Assembly: GCA_022969215.1 (NCBI GenBank) | Contig: JALJPA010000002.1 | Span: 21,476 to 66,522 of the forward strand | Length of the DNA: 45,047 nucleotides | Source: Colwellia sp. | GTDB taxonomy: Bacteria > Pseudomonadota > Gammaproteobacteria > Enterobacterales > Alteromonadaceae | Direction: 5' to 3' | Shown here: positions 36,888-43,412 of the stretch, one piece after another | Layout of the letters: each line of letters opens with the position of its first letter | How positions within the stretch are numbered: position 1 is the stretch's first letter | Notes under the pieces: model-generated | Told to the model about the DNA's origin: nothing | What the model saw: only the letters and a program-made list of their open reading frames with translations | Database searches by the model: none | Position numbers and translations under genes: made by a program

Positions 36888-38375
36888 TTAGCCTGTAGGC
36901 AGAGACAATGAAAAGCTACTGCCATTGCCTAGTTCACTTTTAACCATCAGCTCAGAGTTGAGTACTTGAGATAATTTCTGACTAATCGCTAAACCTAAGC
37001 CAGTATGCTGGATATTATCTTCTATGGCGTTACTCGCTCTATATCTGGCATCAAATATATAGGCGATATCCTCTTTACTGATGCCACTACCATTATCGGT
37101 AACACTGACTTTAACTTGTGTACTTAGCTGTGCGACTGTCACCACTATTTCACCGCCAAGATCAGTATGTCTGATGGCATTTTCTAATAAGTTGGTCATG
37201 ATGCGCTCTAATTTAGCGATGTCAGAGTAAACAATATATTGGCAAGGTTGCGGTTTTAAAATTAATGAAATCTTTTTATCTGCGGCTTTTAGGGTAAATT
37301 TAGCCAAAATGTCATGTAAAAGCTCACCAATGGCAAAAGTTTCTAAATTAACCGTCACCTGACCATTTTCTAGATGAGCCAGTTCAAAAATTTGATCAAT
37401 CAGCCGCTTTAGTTGAGAGACATTGCGCTGCACTGTCGCTAAATAATCTTGTTTTTCTGCGCTAGATAAGTCATCGCCCTTTATCGCTAAAGTCTCAATA
37501 TAGCCTTGCATGGTCGCTAATGGTGTTCGCAGATCATGAGACAAGTGTGCTAATAATTCTCGACGGATTCGGTCGTTTTCTGTTAATAGAGAAAATTGCT
37601 GGTTAATTTGGATAACCATATCGTTAAAGGTTGCGCCGAGAAAGTGCACTTCATTATGGTCAATGCCATGGTTTTCCGCTGAACCCCATTGCTTGAGCTG
37701 AATTTTAGTTTGGTCAAATTGCACCGCTTTAAGCGCTTGCATTTGTTTGGCTAGTTCTTTGACCGGTTGAGTAAAATAGTGAAAGACCGCTAATAAAACC
37801 AGTAGTAGTAATAATAAGCTGGCGAGGACAAAGGCGCCGTATTTTTGTAAGTCTTTATCGGCTTGAACTTGGCTAAAAATTGAATCGTAAATTTCTCCGC
37901 CAATAATAATATATAAATAACCCTGTAACAGTTCACCTTGATAAACCGGCGAGACTGAAAATATTTTTTGCTTGTTGATGCCTCGAGGATCATCAGCAAA
38001 AACCGGCATTTTTTTCGGGTTGGCAATAAGCTGCTTTAAGGGGGCTAGGGCAACAGACTTGCGTTTTATTTTAGCTGCCTCGGCTGAATAAGTTAAAATA
38101 TTGCCTTGGGCATCAAGAAAGTAAAACTCAAAAGCAGGGCCGAGTAACATGAGGGTGTGAAACAGGTTTTTTAACGCGGGTTTATCATAAACACCGTCTT
38201 GTAATAGCGGGTTATCATGGGCTAAATGTTCAGCTAAGTGTAAGTGCAACTTTTGCTCAGCTTGATACTTGGACTGCTGAACTAGAGAGTTACTCCAATA
38301 AACCAGTAAGGATGCCATAATCATAAAAGACGCACAGAGTATTAATGCTAAGCGTTGATAAAGTGATATTTTCAT
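36888..38375 (-). CDS. Sensor histidine kinase of the spondin operon
   Basis: 495 residues. Membrane helix 1 at about 9-30, a periplasmic sensor of about 150 residues (FEFYFLDAQGNILTYSAEA), helix 2 at about 181-201, a HAMP-like linker (TQPVKELAKQM...), the H-box with His280 (HLSHDLRTPLATMQGY), N-box (NLLENAIRHT), G1 (DNGSGI) and G2 (HTGLGLAISQKL). So it is an orthodox, membrane-bound histidine kinase. It is the last gene of the spondin / response regulator / kinase operon, 42 nt after the regulator. The periplasmic signal is unknown. Confidence 0.95.
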   Translation of the reverse strand: MKISLYQRLALILCASFMIMASLLVYWSNSLVQQSKYQAEQKLHLHLAEHLAHDNPLLQDGVYDKPALKNLFHTLMLLGPAFEFYFLDAQGNILTYSAEAAKIKRKSVALAPLKQLIANPKKMPVFADDPRGINKQKIFSVSPVYQGELLQGYLYIIIGGEIYDSIFSQVQADKDLQKYGAFVLASLLLLLLVLLAVFHYFTQPVKELAKQMQALKAVQFDQTKIQLKQWGSAENHGIDHNEVHFLGATFNDMVIQINQQFSLLTENDRIRRELLAHLSHDLRTPLATMQGYIETLAIKGDDLSSAEKQDYLATVQRNVSQLKRLIDQIFELAHLENGQVTVNLETFAIGELLHDILAKFTLKAADKKISLILKPQPCQYIVYSDIAKLERIMTNLLENAIRHTDLGGEIVVTVAQLSTQVKVSVTDNGSGISKEDIAYIFDARYRASNAIEDNIQHTGLGLAISQKLSQVLNSELMVKSELGNGSSFSLSLPTG

Positions 38376-38417: not shown

Positions 38418-39191
38418 TTAACACGCCATTGGTGGCATTACCCCGGCAGAATTAAGTTTATAACCAACTCCCCAGACGGTTTGAATTATTTGAGGCTCAT
38501 TACAGTTTTCCTCAAGCTTGCTTCTCAGGCGATTAATATGAGAATTCACCGTATGTTCATAGCCATTGTGATGATAGCCCCAGACACCATCGAGTAATTG
38601 CGCCCGTGAAAACACCTGATCAGGGTGCTGGCAGAAAAAATCTATTAACTCAAACTCGGTCGCGGTTAAGTTGATGGCTTTATTTTTATAAGTGACTTGG
38701 TGATATCTATGGTCAATATGAAGCTGGCCGATACTTACTCCTTGCTCTTGTTGAGTCGACGCTTGTTGTGCTGAATTTCCCTTAAACTTATCATTGTTTT
38801 GGTCAGTGTTTTTGGCGTTAATTGCATGTACCCGACGTAACTGACTCCTAACTCGGGCCTGTAACTCTCTAATGCTAAAAGGTTTAGTCATATAGTCATC
38901 AGCCCCTAGCTCAAGTCCCAACACCCTATCAATTTCAGAGGTTTTAGAGGTCAGCATAATAATTGACTGCAGCGGCTTTGCTTGCCTGACTTGCCGGCAA
39001 ATATCTAGCCCACTAATACCCGGTAACATCACATCAAGTAAAATAAGTTGGTATTCTTGTGTTAAGGCTTGCTCTAATGCAGCCTCTCCTTGGGTACAAA
39101 TATCACAGTGCAGGTCTAACTCGGATAAATGCACTTTAATAAGCTTGGCAATATCCATTTCGTCTTCAATGATTAAAATTTTATCTTTCAT
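38418..39191 (-). CDS. OmpR-family response regulator of the spondin operon
   Basis: 257 residues. Receiver domain with acidic pocket Glu9, Asp10 and phosphoacceptor Asp53 (LILLDVMLPGISG), then YMTKPFSIRE with the conserved Lys. A polar Asn/Gln linker (NAKNTDQNNDKFKGNSAQQA) leads to a winged-helix DNA-binding domain (LTATEFELIDFFCQHPDQVFSRAQLLDGVWGY, VNSHINRLRSKLEEN, IQTVWGVGYKL). OmpR-family regulators bind direct repeats spaced 10-11 bp. Such repeats lie upstream of this operon at 40809-40859. Confidence 0.96.
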   Translation of the reverse strand: MKDKILIIEDEMDIAKLIKVHLSELDLHCDICTQGEAALEQALTQEYQLILLDVMLPGISGLDICRQVRQAKPLQSIIMLTSKTSEIDRVLGLELGADDYMTKPFSIRELQARVRSQLRRVHAINAKNTDQNNDKFKGNSAQQASTQQEQGVSIGQLHIDHRYHQVTYKNKAINLTATEFELIDFFCQHPDQVFSRAQLLDGVWGYHHNGYEHTVNSHINRLRSKLEENCNEPQIIQTVWGVGYKLNSAGVMPPMAC

Positions 39192-39235: not shown

Positions 39236-39979
39236 CTACTTCGTTCGAGTAATGGTTAATTTAACTGCAGGGTTATCAAAACGATGCGCCTGAGTTAATA
39301 CTGAGCTAGATAAACCATCATCTTTGCTAACTACCCCAGAATGATAGCCGACTAGGTCGATATCATTGCGGGCGGCGTCATAACCTACGCCTCCGTCAGC
39401 AGGACCCGGAATGGTACCGACCGCTTCGTTGTTTAGCTCGGTACCTGAATCATAGACATTTAATCGCCATGACTTTTCCTGATTAACCGTTAATGTTGAT
39501 ATATCTACACCAGTAAGACCCGAGAAAGCATCATTTGTATTCACTAACATGGTGACAACCGTTAAATACTTTGCCGTAGCCTCAGTGGTACTGATCTCTA
39601 AAGTTACGCTAGTGCCCGGTGGTACTGGCCCGGCACTGCTCGTCGTTGCTAGATTATCCGCAAGGGCGATGAAGTCAGTATTATCTCCTCCTTCGGCCAG
39701 TTTTTCTAAGGCGACTGAAGCTGCTTGGCCAACTTGCCACATTTTAGTATCGCCATGCAGTGCTACCGCGATAGGTGATAAAGGTTGACCATAGGTTAAG
39801 TTCGTTAATGTTATTGAATAACTATATTCCATCGGCGGTTGAGCTGGGGGAGTATAACTATTATCACTGTCATTGTAGCTATCGCCACATGCAGCTAAAC
39901 CAAAGCTAAGTAAGCTAGCAATAACTAATTGAGTGGATAGTTTTTTAGTGATTTTAGGTTGAGCGTTAAAGGTTAACAT
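39236..39979 (-). CDS. Spondin_N-domain lipoprotein
   Basis: 247 residues. Lipobox LAAC (Cys31) after a helical signal sequence (STQLVIASLLSFGLAAC), then a Ser/Asn/Pro linker and a Spondin_N-like domain: YSYSITLTNLTYGQPLSPIAVALH, VGQAASVALEKLAEGGDNTDFIALAD. It should be anchored to a membrane by lipid. In animals the spondin N domain binds matrix proteins and divalent metals; the bacterial role is not known. It follows the other spondin gene by 9 nt and shares its ends (NPAVKLTITRTK and NPVAKLTITVL). Confidence 0.87.
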   Translation of the reverse strand: MLTFNAQPKITKKLSTQLVIASLLSFGLAACGDSYNDSDNSYTPPAQPPMEYSYSITLTNLTYGQPLSPIAVALHGDTKMWQVGQAASVALEKLAEGGDNTDFIALADNLATTSSAGPVPPGTSVTLEISTTEATAKYLTVVTMLVNTNDAFSGLTGVDISTLTVNQEKSWRLNVYDSGTELNNEAVGTIPGPADGGVGYDAARNDIDLVGYHSGVVSKDDGLSSSVLTQAHRFDNPAVKLTITRTK

Positions 39980-39988
39980 GATGTACCC

Positions 39989-40708
39989 CTATAGCACGGT
40001 AATGGTGAGTTTAGCGACAGGATTTAACCAACGTTGTACACTATTGTTGATATCACTTTTGCCAGCAGACATATCATCATCACCTAGGCTGCCGCGGTGT
40101 ATATGAACTTTGTCATTCGATTCCATATCGGTAACGCCAGTGCCGTTCATACCTATACTGGCATCAAGTGGTGGTGGTACGGGCATGCCCGCTTCCCCTA
40201 GAGCACCGCTGCCGCGAACTTCATCATTGGCTTCGGTGCCGGCGTCATAGGCATTTAAAAATACCGTATAAGTACCTGCTTCTGCAGGTATTTCCCAACT
40301 GTCTAAGCCAACAAAACCATCATTAGAAGGTAAAATCATTGCCGCAAGTGATAAGTGGGTATTGGCGCTATCAGTGGTTAAAGAGAAGCTTGCTGACATT
40401 GCCGGTGCTAATAATCCGCCTGCAGGGTTCTCATTAATATTCGCGTCGGCATTGGTTAGCATACTTACTAAGCCTGAAATATCACCACCTTCAGCCATTG
40501 TTTGCAGTTCAGCCGTGGCCATATCAGTTAGCATAAATATACGGTTTGTATTGCTATGGGCAGCAGTCACTACAGGGGTGAAATGCAAGCCCTGAGTTAA
40601 ATTGGTGACAGTAATGGATAATTCTTGGGCCATAATTGTTGAACTGGCAAAAGCGAGTGCTAATACGCTTAGTGCTGTTTTAATTGGCGATTTCTTGATT
40701 ACTTTCAT
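39989..40708 (-). CDS. Secreted Spondin_N-domain protein
   Basis: 239 residues from the ATG at 40708, which has AAGGA 6 nt upstream; the ATG at 40714 directly abuts that site and is unlikely. A signal peptide (MKVIKKSPIKTALSVLALAFASSTIMA, cleavage before QELSITV) leads to a Spondin_N-like domain (ITVTNLTQGLHFTPVVTAAHS, MATAELQTMAEGGDISGLVSML). No lipobox, so it is periplasmic or secreted, unlike its lipoprotein partner. First gene of the operon with the second spondin gene, response regulator and histidine kinase. Confidence 0.87.
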   Translation of the reverse strand: MKVIKKSPIKTALSVLALAFASSTIMAQELSITVTNLTQGLHFTPVVTAAHSNTNRIFMLTDMATAELQTMAEGGDISGLVSMLTNADANINENPAGGLLAPAMSASFSLTTDSANTHLSLAAMILPSNDGFVGLDSWEIPAEAGTYTVFLNAYDAGTEANDEVRGSGALGEAGMPVPPPLDASIGMNGTGVTDMESNDKVHIHRGSLGDDDMSAGKSDINNSVQRWLNPVAKLTITVL

Positions 40709-40781
40709 GATCATTCCTTGGTAGTTAGACTTATGTAGCTAAAACTAATGTCGTTAGAACAGACTTCGTTAGCGTAAGGAA

Positions 40782-40787
40782 AGTATG
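40782..40787 (-). promoter_or_regulatory. Candidate -10 of the spondin operon
   Basis: CATACT on the minus strand matches TATAAT at 4 of 6. It is 21 nt downstream of the nearest direct repeat. GATAAC at 40795-40800 is another option at 8 nt. Neither is strong, which is usual for promoters that depend on a response regulator. Confidence 0.35.
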
Positions 40788-40808
40788 TCGGTGAGTTATC
40801 GCTTGCAG

Positions 40809-40859
40809 ATCACGCTTTTATCACTTATTAAAGAAAAATTAATCACAGAAGTATCACAG
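40809..40859 (-). promoter_or_regulatory. Phased direct repeats, candidate response regulator site
   Basis: ATCAC occurs at 40809, 40820, 40842 and 40853, at offsets of 0, 11, 33 and 44 bp; the expected copy at offset 22 is missing. On the coding (minus) strand the two upstream copies form a perfect CTGTGAT-N4-CTGTGAT, and the two downstream copies AAGTGAT-N4-GCGTGAT. This is the layout of OmpR/PhoB-family operators (the PhoB box is CTGTCAT-N4-CTGTCAT). It lies 100-150 bp before the first spondin gene, in the operon that encodes an OmpR-family regulator. Confidence 0.7.
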
Positions 40860-40896
40860 CTATGTAATTGAAGGTTGGTGATTGATCGCTAGTTTA

Positions 40897-41159
40897 TACC
40901 AATTTGATTAAATTTTTTCCCTACTCAGAGCTATGCTCGATGTTCAATAACAAGGCGAATTCATTCCTGTTTAGTCACTCTAAATCAAATGAATTTAACA
41001 AAGTTAATGGACATCGAGTAAGCTCCCAAGGGCGAGTTTAAAAGGCTTACACACTACGTTATTGATTTTGAGAAGGGAATAACCATTCTCATCAATCAAT
41101 GCCTTGTCTTTAAGCCTTTTAATTCTCGCTGAGTGGGAAAGAACTTAATCAACTTGGTA
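40897..41159. mobile_element. Structured MITE-like element
   Basis: 263 bp with imperfect terminal inverted repeats: left 40897-40928 (TACCAATTTGATTAAATTTT...) and right 41129-41159, about 28 of 32 positions paired with one extra base. A TTA flanks each end (40894-40896 and 41160-41162), a plausible 3-bp target duplication. Inside are two further inverted repeats: arm 1 at 40936-41018 (CTCGATGT / ACATCGAG ends) and arm 2 at 41032-41129 (GCGAGTTTAAAAGGCTTA / TAAGCCTTTTAATTCTCGC). There is no ORF, so a transposase in trans would be needed. Confidence 0.75.
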
Positions 41160-41162
41160 TTA

Positions 41163-41290
41163 GTCTTGAGAGGGCTTTATTAATAGGGGTGCACTGTTAG
41201 GCGAATACTGATTTGTTTATTAGCTCATTACTTTGCTTGCCAGTTATTGATAGAGGGGCACTGGCAAGGAAAATAAATAGTGAAGTGGGA
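41163..41290. other. Gap after the MITE, before the kinase gene
   Basis: Non-coding; nothing recognised. It holds the 3' end of the minus-strand sugar-kinase-like gene (stop codon at 41291). No terminator was identified. Confidence 0.4.
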
Positions 41291-42370
41291 TTACTGAGCG
41301 AGTTTTACTAACTCAGGCTCAGCTTCACACACTAGGGTAAATAATTGTACTTGGCTGATAGCGCGATCTAAATTATGGTTTTCACGGCTTACTTGGAAAT
41401 AGTTATCGCCATTTAAATGATCGGTTAAAAAGCGTGTACCGATAATAAAAGGTAATAACTTGGCACCAACAATTAAGCTTTCTTTTTCAAGTGCTGTCAT
41501 CTTATCAGCAAAGGTATTCTGGTAATTGCTGATTAATGCTTCAAAGATATCAAGCTTAAGTACCATTTTTTCTGTGCTGGTATCATCTTCAGCAAGGTTA
41601 CTACAACAGGTTCTGACCATATCGCCAAAGTCATGCATTAATAAGCCAGGCATACAGGTATCAAGGTCAATGACTGCGCAGGGTTTGTCACCGGTAGTGA
41701 ATAAGAGGTTGTTTATCTTAGTATCATTGTGCGTAACATGCAGGGGTAACTTTTTACTGATGTCGACCACATGATCAATAAAACTTTGTTGAGCGAAGCA
41801 GAAATTAACTAAGGCTTGGCAGTCCGATAAACGGCCTTGAATATCATTAGCAACCGCTTCTTTAAGTTGGCGCATGCGAAAACTAATGTCATGGAAGTCT
41901 TCGATAATAACAGCAAGGTCTTTGGCGGGAAAATCACTTAAGGCGCAGCTAAATTCCGCAAAAGCACTAGCAACCAGTGCCGCTTGCTCTGGCGACTCAA
42001 CTTCTTCTAGAGTATAAGAATTATTAATAAATTCCATTAAACGCCAGTAATTACTACCAATTTTAATACAGGTCTCGCCGGTTTTACTTAGTACTTGCTG
42101 AGGAACGGCTAGTGGATAGTTGCCGCTATTTTTTTTCTGTAATAAATGCACATTTATTTTTTGCGCGTTACTGCTTAGCTCGACCGTTTTAGTGAAAATG
42201 TCATGATTGATTTGCTGTAAGACAAACTCAAAGTCAGGAGTAGTCAATTTATAAGTATTATTAATATGACCATTACCTAAAGAGGTTATTTCAACTTTAG
42301 AAAAGTCATAATCATAATTATTTAGCACCGTATCTATATCAGTCTTCAGTGATCTTGCTTTGTTATCCAT
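41291..42370 (-). CDS. APH-fold kinase, N-acetylhexosamine 1-kinase-like
   Basis: 359 residues. Aminoglycoside phosphotransferase fold: a Gly-rich start (LGNGHINNTYKL), the catalytic HNDTKINN (His214, Asp216) and the metal-binding DLDT (Asp235) in CAVIDLDTCMPGLLMHDFGD. The DLDTxMPGL-x6-FGD pattern is like that of NahK/LnpB sugar 1-kinases as I remember them, rather than antibiotic kinases. Next to a sugar nucleotidyltransferase gene, so sugar 1-phosphate production for a nucleotide sugar is a sensible guess. The substrate is not known. Confidence 0.82.
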   Translation of the reverse strand: MDNKARSLKTDIDTVLNNYDYDFSKVEITSLGNGHINNTYKLTTPDFEFVLQQINHDIFTKTVELSSNAQKINVHLLQKKNSGNYPLAVPQQVLSKTGETCIKIGSNYWRLMEFINNSYTLEEVESPEQAALVASAFAEFSCALSDFPAKDLAVIIEDFHDISFRMRQLKEAVANDIQGRLSDCQALVNFCFAQQSFIDHVVDISKKLPLHVTHNDTKINNLLFTTGDKPCAVIDLDTCMPGLLMHDFGDMVRTCCSNLAEDDTSTEKMVLKLDIFEALISNYQNTFADKMTALEKESLIVGAKLLPFIIGTRFLTDHLNGDNYFQVSRENHNLDRAISQVQLFTLVCEAEPELVKLAQ

Positions 42371-42518: not shown

Positions 42519-43412
42519 CTATTTTTTGCCAAATAGTGCAGTAACTTTCTTATCGACTTGTCCGCTGTCTTGTGAGTAAGTTAAACCAAACCAACTGTCA
42601 CCAGTACTCAGTACTTTTACTCTCTTTTTTTGTTGATGGTGCTTTTGTTGAATTTGCTCCATTACCACGGCGGGTAAGTAACATTCTTGATTAATACCAA
42701 GTTGCTTAGCTTCTATTGCACAGAGTAAACGAGTCAGTGCTTGCTCTAGTGCCAAAAAAATATCAGGGGTGAAAAACCAGCAGTTCATTGAAATTAAACT
42801 CTTTGCTGTTAGCTCTATATCTCGCTGATTTTCGCTGAGAATACCCTTGATCGCTTGGCCATCGACTTGTATTTTCTCACATTCTTCAATAGCGGTTAAA
42901 TAGCTTTGTCCATCGAGCTGACATAAACCTCGATTAACACCACCAAAGTCTGACAAGGTATTGCGTAATTGATAAGCCACCATTAAATAGTCTTTAGGTG
43001 TTTTGTTTGCTTGTTGTAATAATAAACTAAAGGCTTGTTTGCCATAGAAGTCATCAGCGTTAATCACGGCAAAACTTTCTTTGATAAGATGGCGACAACA
43101 CCAAAGCGCATGTGCTGTGCCAAGTGGCTTGCTGCGCTGTGTTGGTAGAGTACATGCGGGTGGCAAGTCAGCAAAGCTCTGTACAGCAAAAGCATATTCA
43201 ATATTTTCTGGCAGTCGCGGGATAACTTGTCGACTTAATAGTGGCTCTAACTCTGGGCGGATGACAAAAACTACCCGTTTAAAGCCGGCATTAACGGCAT
43301 TGATTAAGTTGTACTCCATCAGCGTTAGTTGCTGGGGACCAAACTCAGCCAGTTGTTTATTACCACCAAAGCGAGAGCCTAATCCAGCGGCTAAAATAAC
43401 AAGACTAGTCAT
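42519..43412 (-). CDS. Sugar nucleotidyltransferase
   Basis: 297 residues. Rossmann-type NTP transferase: nucleotide-binding LAAGLGSRFGGNKQLAEFGP (7-26), the KPLGTAHAL segment (95-103) and the metal-binding NADDFYG (118-124). The rest resembles UDP-GlcNAc/glucose-1-phosphate pyrophosphorylases of the mobile-loop type, but the sugar cannot be told. It is 148 nt upstream of the kinase-like gene on the same strand. A 39-codon ORF ends directly before its ATG (TAAATG). Confidence 0.85.
   Translation of the reverse strand: MTSLVILAAGLGSRFGGNKQLAEFGPQQLTLMEYNLINAVNAGFKRVVFVIRPELEPLLSRQVIPRLPENIEYAFAVQSFADLPPACTLPTQRSKPLGTAHALWCCRHLIKESFAVINADDFYGKQAFSLLLQQANKTPKDYLMVAYQLRNTLSDFGGVNRGLCQLDGQSYLTAIEECEKIQVDGQAIKGILSENQRDIELTAKSLISMNCWFFTPDIFLALEQALTRLLCAIEAKQLGINQECYLPAVVMEQIQQKHHQQKKRVKVLSTGDSWFGLTYSQDSGQVDKKVTALFGKK

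Follow-up and report, generated by a model that had tools for sequence, protein, structure and literature searches.

The spondin/two-component operon and its upstream array

The window (the 45,047-nucleotide stretch of Colwellia sp. DNA analyzed here) derives from a 5.0-Mb assembly of 434 contigs that is 87% complete. Its minus strand carries an apparent operon encoding, in order, a 241-aa spondin-domain protein (spondin 1, 39989–40714; Spond_N 45.3 bits, cut-off 24; also NF038123), a second spondin-domain protein of 247 aa (spondin 2, 39236–39979; NF038123 177 bits, cut-off 40), a 257-aa OmpR/PhoB-family response regulator (38418–39191), and a 495-aa sensor histidine kinase (36888–38375; HisKA and HATPase_c domains). 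The assignment of the regulator to the OmpR family in the initial annotation is borne out by the presence of both the receiver (Response_reg) and winged-helix (Trans_reg_C) domains; this protein is the proposed binder of the array described below. Spondin 1 has an apparent signal peptide, judged by eye, with a possible start at the second ATG (40708), and is 95–96% identical to the corresponding proteins of two Colwellia sp. assemblies. Spondin 2 has a lipobox-like LAAC motif, also judged by eye, and its Pfam Spond_N score of 21.1 bits falls below the cut-off of 24. No function, whether of bacterial spondin-domain proteins or of this sensor–regulator pair, emerged from the literature searched. 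Upstream of the array, on the same strand, is an APH-family phosphotransferase-like gene (41291–42370; Pfam APH), adjoined by a nucleotidyltransferase-like gene identified by eye (42519–43412). A second spondin gene in the same genome (L061, G000:C294:934–1503) has no array, and there is no regulator on its short contig.

Upstream of spondin 1, ATCAC words begin at plus-strand positions 40809, 40820, 40842, and 40853, that is, at offsets of 0, 11, 33, and 44 bp, exactly as first annotated. With up to three mismatches allowed, this four-word pattern has a single match in the window, at zero mismatches, and none in 100 dinucleotide shuffles. The original count of four words needs correction, as one word was overlooked: read on the coding (minus) strand, the array comprises six 11-bp units. 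Unit 1, farthest from the gene, is CTGTGAT (40853–40859); unit 2 repeats it (CTGTGAT, 40842–40848) as the second half of a perfect direct repeat with a 4-bp spacer. Unit 3 (40831–40837) is degenerate, unit 4 is AAGTGAT (40820–40826), unit 5 is GCGTGAT (40809–40815), and unit 6, the overlooked word, is AAGCGAT (40798–40804). The step at 22 bp, previously described as missing, is degenerate in the window, where unit 3 reads TTTTCTT, but can be recognized in sister Colwellia species as AAGTAAT-like or GTGAT. The perfect heptamer pair CTGTGAT-N4-CTGTGAT is present as reported (40842–40859, minus strand) and occurs with zero mismatches once in the window and once in the 87% complete assembly. With up to three mismatches allowed, the window contains 5 such pairs against a mean of 3.5 expected, which is not significant for the pair on its own, so the strength of the case lies in the four-word layout and its conservation.

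A −10-like hexamer, CATACT, also overlooked in the initial annotation, lies in register with the end of the array (40782–40787, minus strand), 73 bp from the start of unit 1 and at phase 7 of 11. Among 16 close relatives, identity is 95–99% in the words except unit 3 (61%), 97% in the five bases that cover most of the −10, and 48% in the upstream flank; the aligned loci were picked for carrying GTGATACTT, which makes the conservation of unit 1 circular. A sigma-70 scan of 40650–41320 found no promoter on the operon strand and one on the other strand (1.7 expected in shuffles). The absence of a match on the operon strand would fit an activator-dependent promoter, though it proves nothing.

Conservation and promoter geometry

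Relatives of spondin 1 are present in 61 of 99 related genomes. The named loci, 80 of which were kept from at least 552 named relatives, include members of Colwellia, Thalassotalea, Alteromonas, Pseudoalteromonas, Paraglaciecola, and Psychromonas. Arrays were called where two adjacent phased words scored at least 10 of 12. By this measure, an array occurs in 90 of 105 non-redundant spondin upstream regions, as compared with 41 of 2100 shuffles and, among regions upstream of other ORFs in the named loci, 12 of 545; the 105 regions remained from 138 after removal of similar ones, and L001, L061, L062, and near-identical regions had been dropped beforehand. Conservation upstream of orthologous operons, which the initial annotation had proposed as a check, was found in 71 of the 80 named loci (nine fall below the threshold) and in 49 of the 52 relative loci that have the regulator as a neighbor (three below).

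Spacing within the 105 regions is strongly periodic: of the 248 GTGAY pairs that share a strand and lie within 70 bp, 233 are 11, 22, 33, or 44 bp apart, and the other-strand word (RTCAC) forms no pairs. The exact 0/11/33/44 layout belongs to the window's own clade, and the number of units differs elsewhere. The strict two-word site TGTGATANNTNTGTGATNA has 33 matches in the 99 genomes, whereas its reversed control has none; 28 of the matches lie upstream of spondin 1 at a distance of no more than 400 bp. A chance origin of the array was rejected on the combined shuffle, spacing, conservation, and reversed-control comparisons.

The relationship between array and promoter is likewise regular. 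A NATRCT hexamer lies 15–95 bp downstream of the array in 71 of 91 array-bearing regions, and 64 of 76 NATRCT occurrences share phase 7 of 11. The −10-like distance is mostly either 51 bp (30 cases, with four units) or 73 bp (24 cases, with six units, as in the window); a few −10-like hexamers are found at 29, 40, and 62 bp. The number of units thus changes by whole helical turns, entire 11-bp units being gained or lost while the helical phase to the −10 stays fixed. Across the 60 promoters scored, no TTGACA-like −35 at a spacing of 16–18 exceeded three of six matches. As judged from sequence only, the array appears to occupy the place of the −35, in phase with the −10, and this anatomy is apparently that of an activator-dependent promoter of the PhoB type, at which the array would mediate activation. 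Arrays of two to six units with a constant −10 phase constitute a natural experiment on the evolution of tandem OmpR-family operators.

The co-encoded regulator as candidate binder

These data make it most likely that 40798–40859 is a tandem operator of the co-encoded OmpR/PhoB-type regulator, placed in phase with an activator-dependent promoter; we infer that this regulator binds the array, activates from it, and autoregulates. Regulator dimers, presumably arranged head-to-tail, would each cover two 11-bp units with a consensus of approximately TGTGATAAY-TT, and would stack along one helix face as far as the −35 region, in a promoter with a −10 hexamer but none at −35. RNA polymerase would then be recruited by the stacked regulator in a manner resembling that of PhoB at a pho box.

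The distribution of the site follows that of the regulator. Among related genomes, the strict site is present in 31 of the 55 that have an ortholog of the regulator (E ≤ 1e-55) and in 1 of the 44 that do not (Fisher p = 1.2e-9; counts read by hand). Eight relative spondin loci, listed by hand, have no neighboring regulator; five of these also have no array, and three (in G060, G047, and G024) retain one. In G060 and G047, the regulator is encoded elsewhere in the genome, in G060 together with the kinase. In G047, where the regulator and spondins are split, two phased words are present at each promoter, and a search next to the regulator gene found no kinase. In G024:C2 (L056, L190), spondin 1 runs into the end of the kinase, spondin 2 and the regulator are missing, and the adjacent array looks altered; the operon in this genome looks to be in decay.

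A paralogous OmpR-family regulator that reads the same word could be the main binder, with the co-encoded regulator a bystander or partial competitor, but we consider this unlikely. Such a paralog would account for the Colwellia genome G018 (97% complete), in which no ortholog of the regulator, kinase, or spondin was found and the promoter of the methionine-sulfoxide repair gene msrAB (L255) nonetheless keeps phased words scoring 11 of 12; these words are either a relic or the site of another regulator that reads the same word. It would also account for G060 and G085, two genomes of one genus in which the regulator–kinase pair is encoded elsewhere and its own promoter has no array (scores of 8 and 7 of 12, respectively), an absence that argues against general autoregulation. 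However, the strong site–ortholog association described above, the lack of arrays at the spondin loci examined in ortholog-free genomes (L047, L048, L057, and L062, with the decaying operon of G024 as the exception), and the array at the split regulator gene of G047 all speak for the co-encoded regulator. Autoregulation of the window operon itself appears likely.

Of 134 regulators found, 93 could be parsed by the helix pattern (many of the remaining 41 are cut by the locus end, and some are variants), and 85 of these 93 share the recognition helix HTVNSHINRLR. By profile score, the closest named families are MtrA (227.3 bits, cut-off 300) and CreB (215.3 bits, cut-off 273), both of which recognize 11-bp repeats of the GTNAC or GTGAA type. 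The regulator scores below these cut-offs and below that of the PhoB profile as well (214.3 bits, cut-off 296.2), and is a separate member of the OmpR/PhoB family.

A close precedent is the pho box of Escherichia coli, described as two 11-nt direct-repeat units, each of seven conserved and four less conserved nucleotides, to which PhoB binds head-to-tail (PMC4415409). The initial annotation held that the layout copies the PhoB box. This stands for the geometry, as the 7+4+7 layout and 11-bp steps are the same and the DNA-binding domain of the regulator aligns with that of PhoB; it does not extend to the word, which is TGTGA here and TGTCA for PhoB, or to the regulator, which falls below the PhoB cut-off, and the arrays reach as many as six units. 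In the alignment, the PhoB recognition helix reads RTVDVHIRRLR, and some of its differences from the helix found here may explain TGTGA in place of TGTCA.

We consider it very unlikely that the array is a genuine PhoB box through which the cell's own PhoB controls the operon as part of the phosphate regulon. The shared 7+4+7 layout, the close relationship of the two regulators, and a best pair that is two mismatches from CTGTCAT-N4-CTGTCAT would be expected under this interpretation. Yet those same two mismatches separate the site from CTGTCAT, and the consensus word is TGTGA or TGTGAT; a perfect CTGTCAT pair exists elsewhere in the same genome, suggesting that PhoB keeps its own word; the sites track the spondin regulator across genomes; and the other targets are Msr and redox-type genes rather than phosphate genes. 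Control by PhoB was rejected as the main reading on the word, the profile cut-off, and the targets.

A near-identical site is known from a more distant member of the family. The crystal structure of Mycobacterium tuberculosis PhoP, an OmpR-family protein, places a tandem dimer on TCACAGC-N4-TCACAGC; the 4-bp spacer is described as strict, and binding as cooperative up to trimers or tetramers on proper repeats (PMC4832192). The window pair, read as TCACAGA-N4-TCACAGC, nearly matches this site in letters and spacing. In contrast, the PhoP contact residues named in PMC4832192 seem, by hand alignment, to differ in the window regulator. The two regulators are only distantly related; the DNA-binding domain aligns with the 3r0j/5ed4 chain at 46.8 bits.

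Almost no weight can be given to cAMP-CRP as the binder: TGTGA is the CRP half-site word and in that respect matches, but the words share one orientation and 11-bp steps, the palindrome TGTGA-N6-TCACA occurs in 0 of 105 regions and is absent from window positions 40715–40960, and among the same 105 regions TGTGA-N4..8-TCACA occurs in none and the looser GTGA-N6-TCAC in one.

Candidate regulon and signal

Phased sites recur at promoters other than those of the spondin operons. A one-mismatch search returned 72 matches in 39 Colwellia genomes against 17 in the reversed control (hand-counted), a ratio at which single matches mean little, and 45 against 3 in the 11 genomes of the genus of G060. 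When three exact words were required, a stringent condition, the 246 genomes of the family gave only 17 matches (three in the reversed control); these comprise 15 spondin 1 promoters and two msrAB promoters.

The msrAB gene, an MsrA-thioredoxin-MsrB fusion, is present in 13 of the 39 Colwellia genomes (L254–L266), and its product was judged periplasmic by eye from the N-terminus. Phased words precede it in 12 of these 13 genomes, the twelfth being G018; the remaining locus, in G026, has no array by score. A −10-like hexamer lies at 51 bp in 11 of 13, as in the four-unit spondin promoters, with L266 left out of the −10 scoring. A further recurrent site in Colwellia is at the gene for a lipoprotein-like DM13-domain protein. 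Of 29 DM13-type matches, 20 loci were examined, and 17 of the 20 have an array (three do not); a −10-like hexamer stands at the expected phase in only 8 of the 15 promoters scored, a set that left out L274, L278, L281, L285, and L286.

In the genus of G060, phased sites occur in 11 of 11 genomes both at msrPQ and at a gene pair encoding a YHS-domain protein and a DoxX-like protein. Both promoters have a −10-like hexamer at 40 bp and in the same phase, but it has competitors among other −10-like matches, and at msrP it abuts the first ATG of the longest frame. In this genus, a DinB-like and TANGO2/NRDE pair has sites in the four loci scored, with the −10 phase mostly off by one. Pfam supports the YHS, TANGO2, MsrP, and MsrQ domains; the DoxX and DinB names were assigned by eye and are unsupported by Pfam or NCBIfam. 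The YHS/DoxX-like and DinB-like/TANGO2 pairs lie approximately 5.6 kb apart (L234, L235–L237).

In the window's own genome, 87% complete, a one-mismatch search found no second site, and neither an msrAB nor a DM13 homolog was found. A one-mismatch candidate on G000:C380 was set aside, as it falls within a 585-aa ORF and one match was obtained with the reversed pattern as well. Among the recurrent one-mismatch matches, those in an hscB-like region (L194), at a gene end before a ccoG-like gene (L218), and inside an ORF (L253) were discounted on inspection by eye and probably reflect coding conservation or chance.

The msrAB, msrPQ, DM13, and YHS targets in relatives include two unrelated systems for the repair of methionine sulfoxide, found in two genera. 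They suggest a response to envelope oxidative damage, which we infer would be the signal. Two-component control of methionine-sulfoxide repair has a precedent in E. coli, where HprSR/CusSR is described as controlling msrPQ, a periplasmic repair system (PMC9302797). The likeness is one of function and not of operator architecture: the E. coli box CATTACAAAATTGTAATG is given there as an inverted repeat, whereas the array here is a phased direct repeat.

A similar gene set has been reported in Pseudoalteromonas luteoviolacea, where two Spondin_N genes and the genes for a kinase and an OmpR-family regulator stand beside an L-amino-acid oxidase gene (PMC6316408). The P. luteoviolacea locus examined here (L150) has this gene order, with an array just before spondin 1; its oxidase and decarboxylase names were assigned by eye. 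The L-amino-acid oxidase gene that precedes the operon may fit the oxidative-damage interpretation. In the literature searched, only PMC6316408 was found to name this gene set, its passages on the P. luteoviolacea cluster mention no regulatory motif or regulon, and no description of the motif was found. This kind of operator is already known; the word and regulon of this system are not described in the literature searched.

A broader proposal, which we regard as plausible but somewhat doubtful, is that these loci define a new envelope two-component system that is widespread in marine Gammaproteobacteria. Its regulon would combine the repair of methionine sulfoxide in the periplasm, by msrAB in Colwellia and by msrPQ in another genus, with secreted proteins of the spondin, DM13, and YHS-domain types, and control would act through operators that gain and lose whole helical turns at one fixed −10 phase. 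If this is correct, the secreted spondin proteins would either belong to a sensor of oxidative damage or feed back into it. The array would also serve as a readable word for the regulator, from which a regulon could be listed in any genome; the first such list, in which two genera contribute two unrelated repair systems for methionine sulfoxide, suggests a signal that can be tested.

Several further matches were observed. Recurrent one-mismatch matches are also found at L191 and L252. A strict-site match in G055 precedes a short ORF, and G039 carries a second site. In the genus of G060, on G102:C38 (L211), an exact two-word site lies upstream of a gene for a spondin-domain, lipoprotein-like protein (NF038123 102 bits, cut-off 40). 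Finally, in a 6.5-Mb relative, inspection by eye showed several phased TGTGAT-like words preceding an AMP-binding, NRPS-like gene (L096, G051:C1:3277000–3281500); with its site at 3279044–3279062, on the minus strand, this gene may be another target of the regulator.
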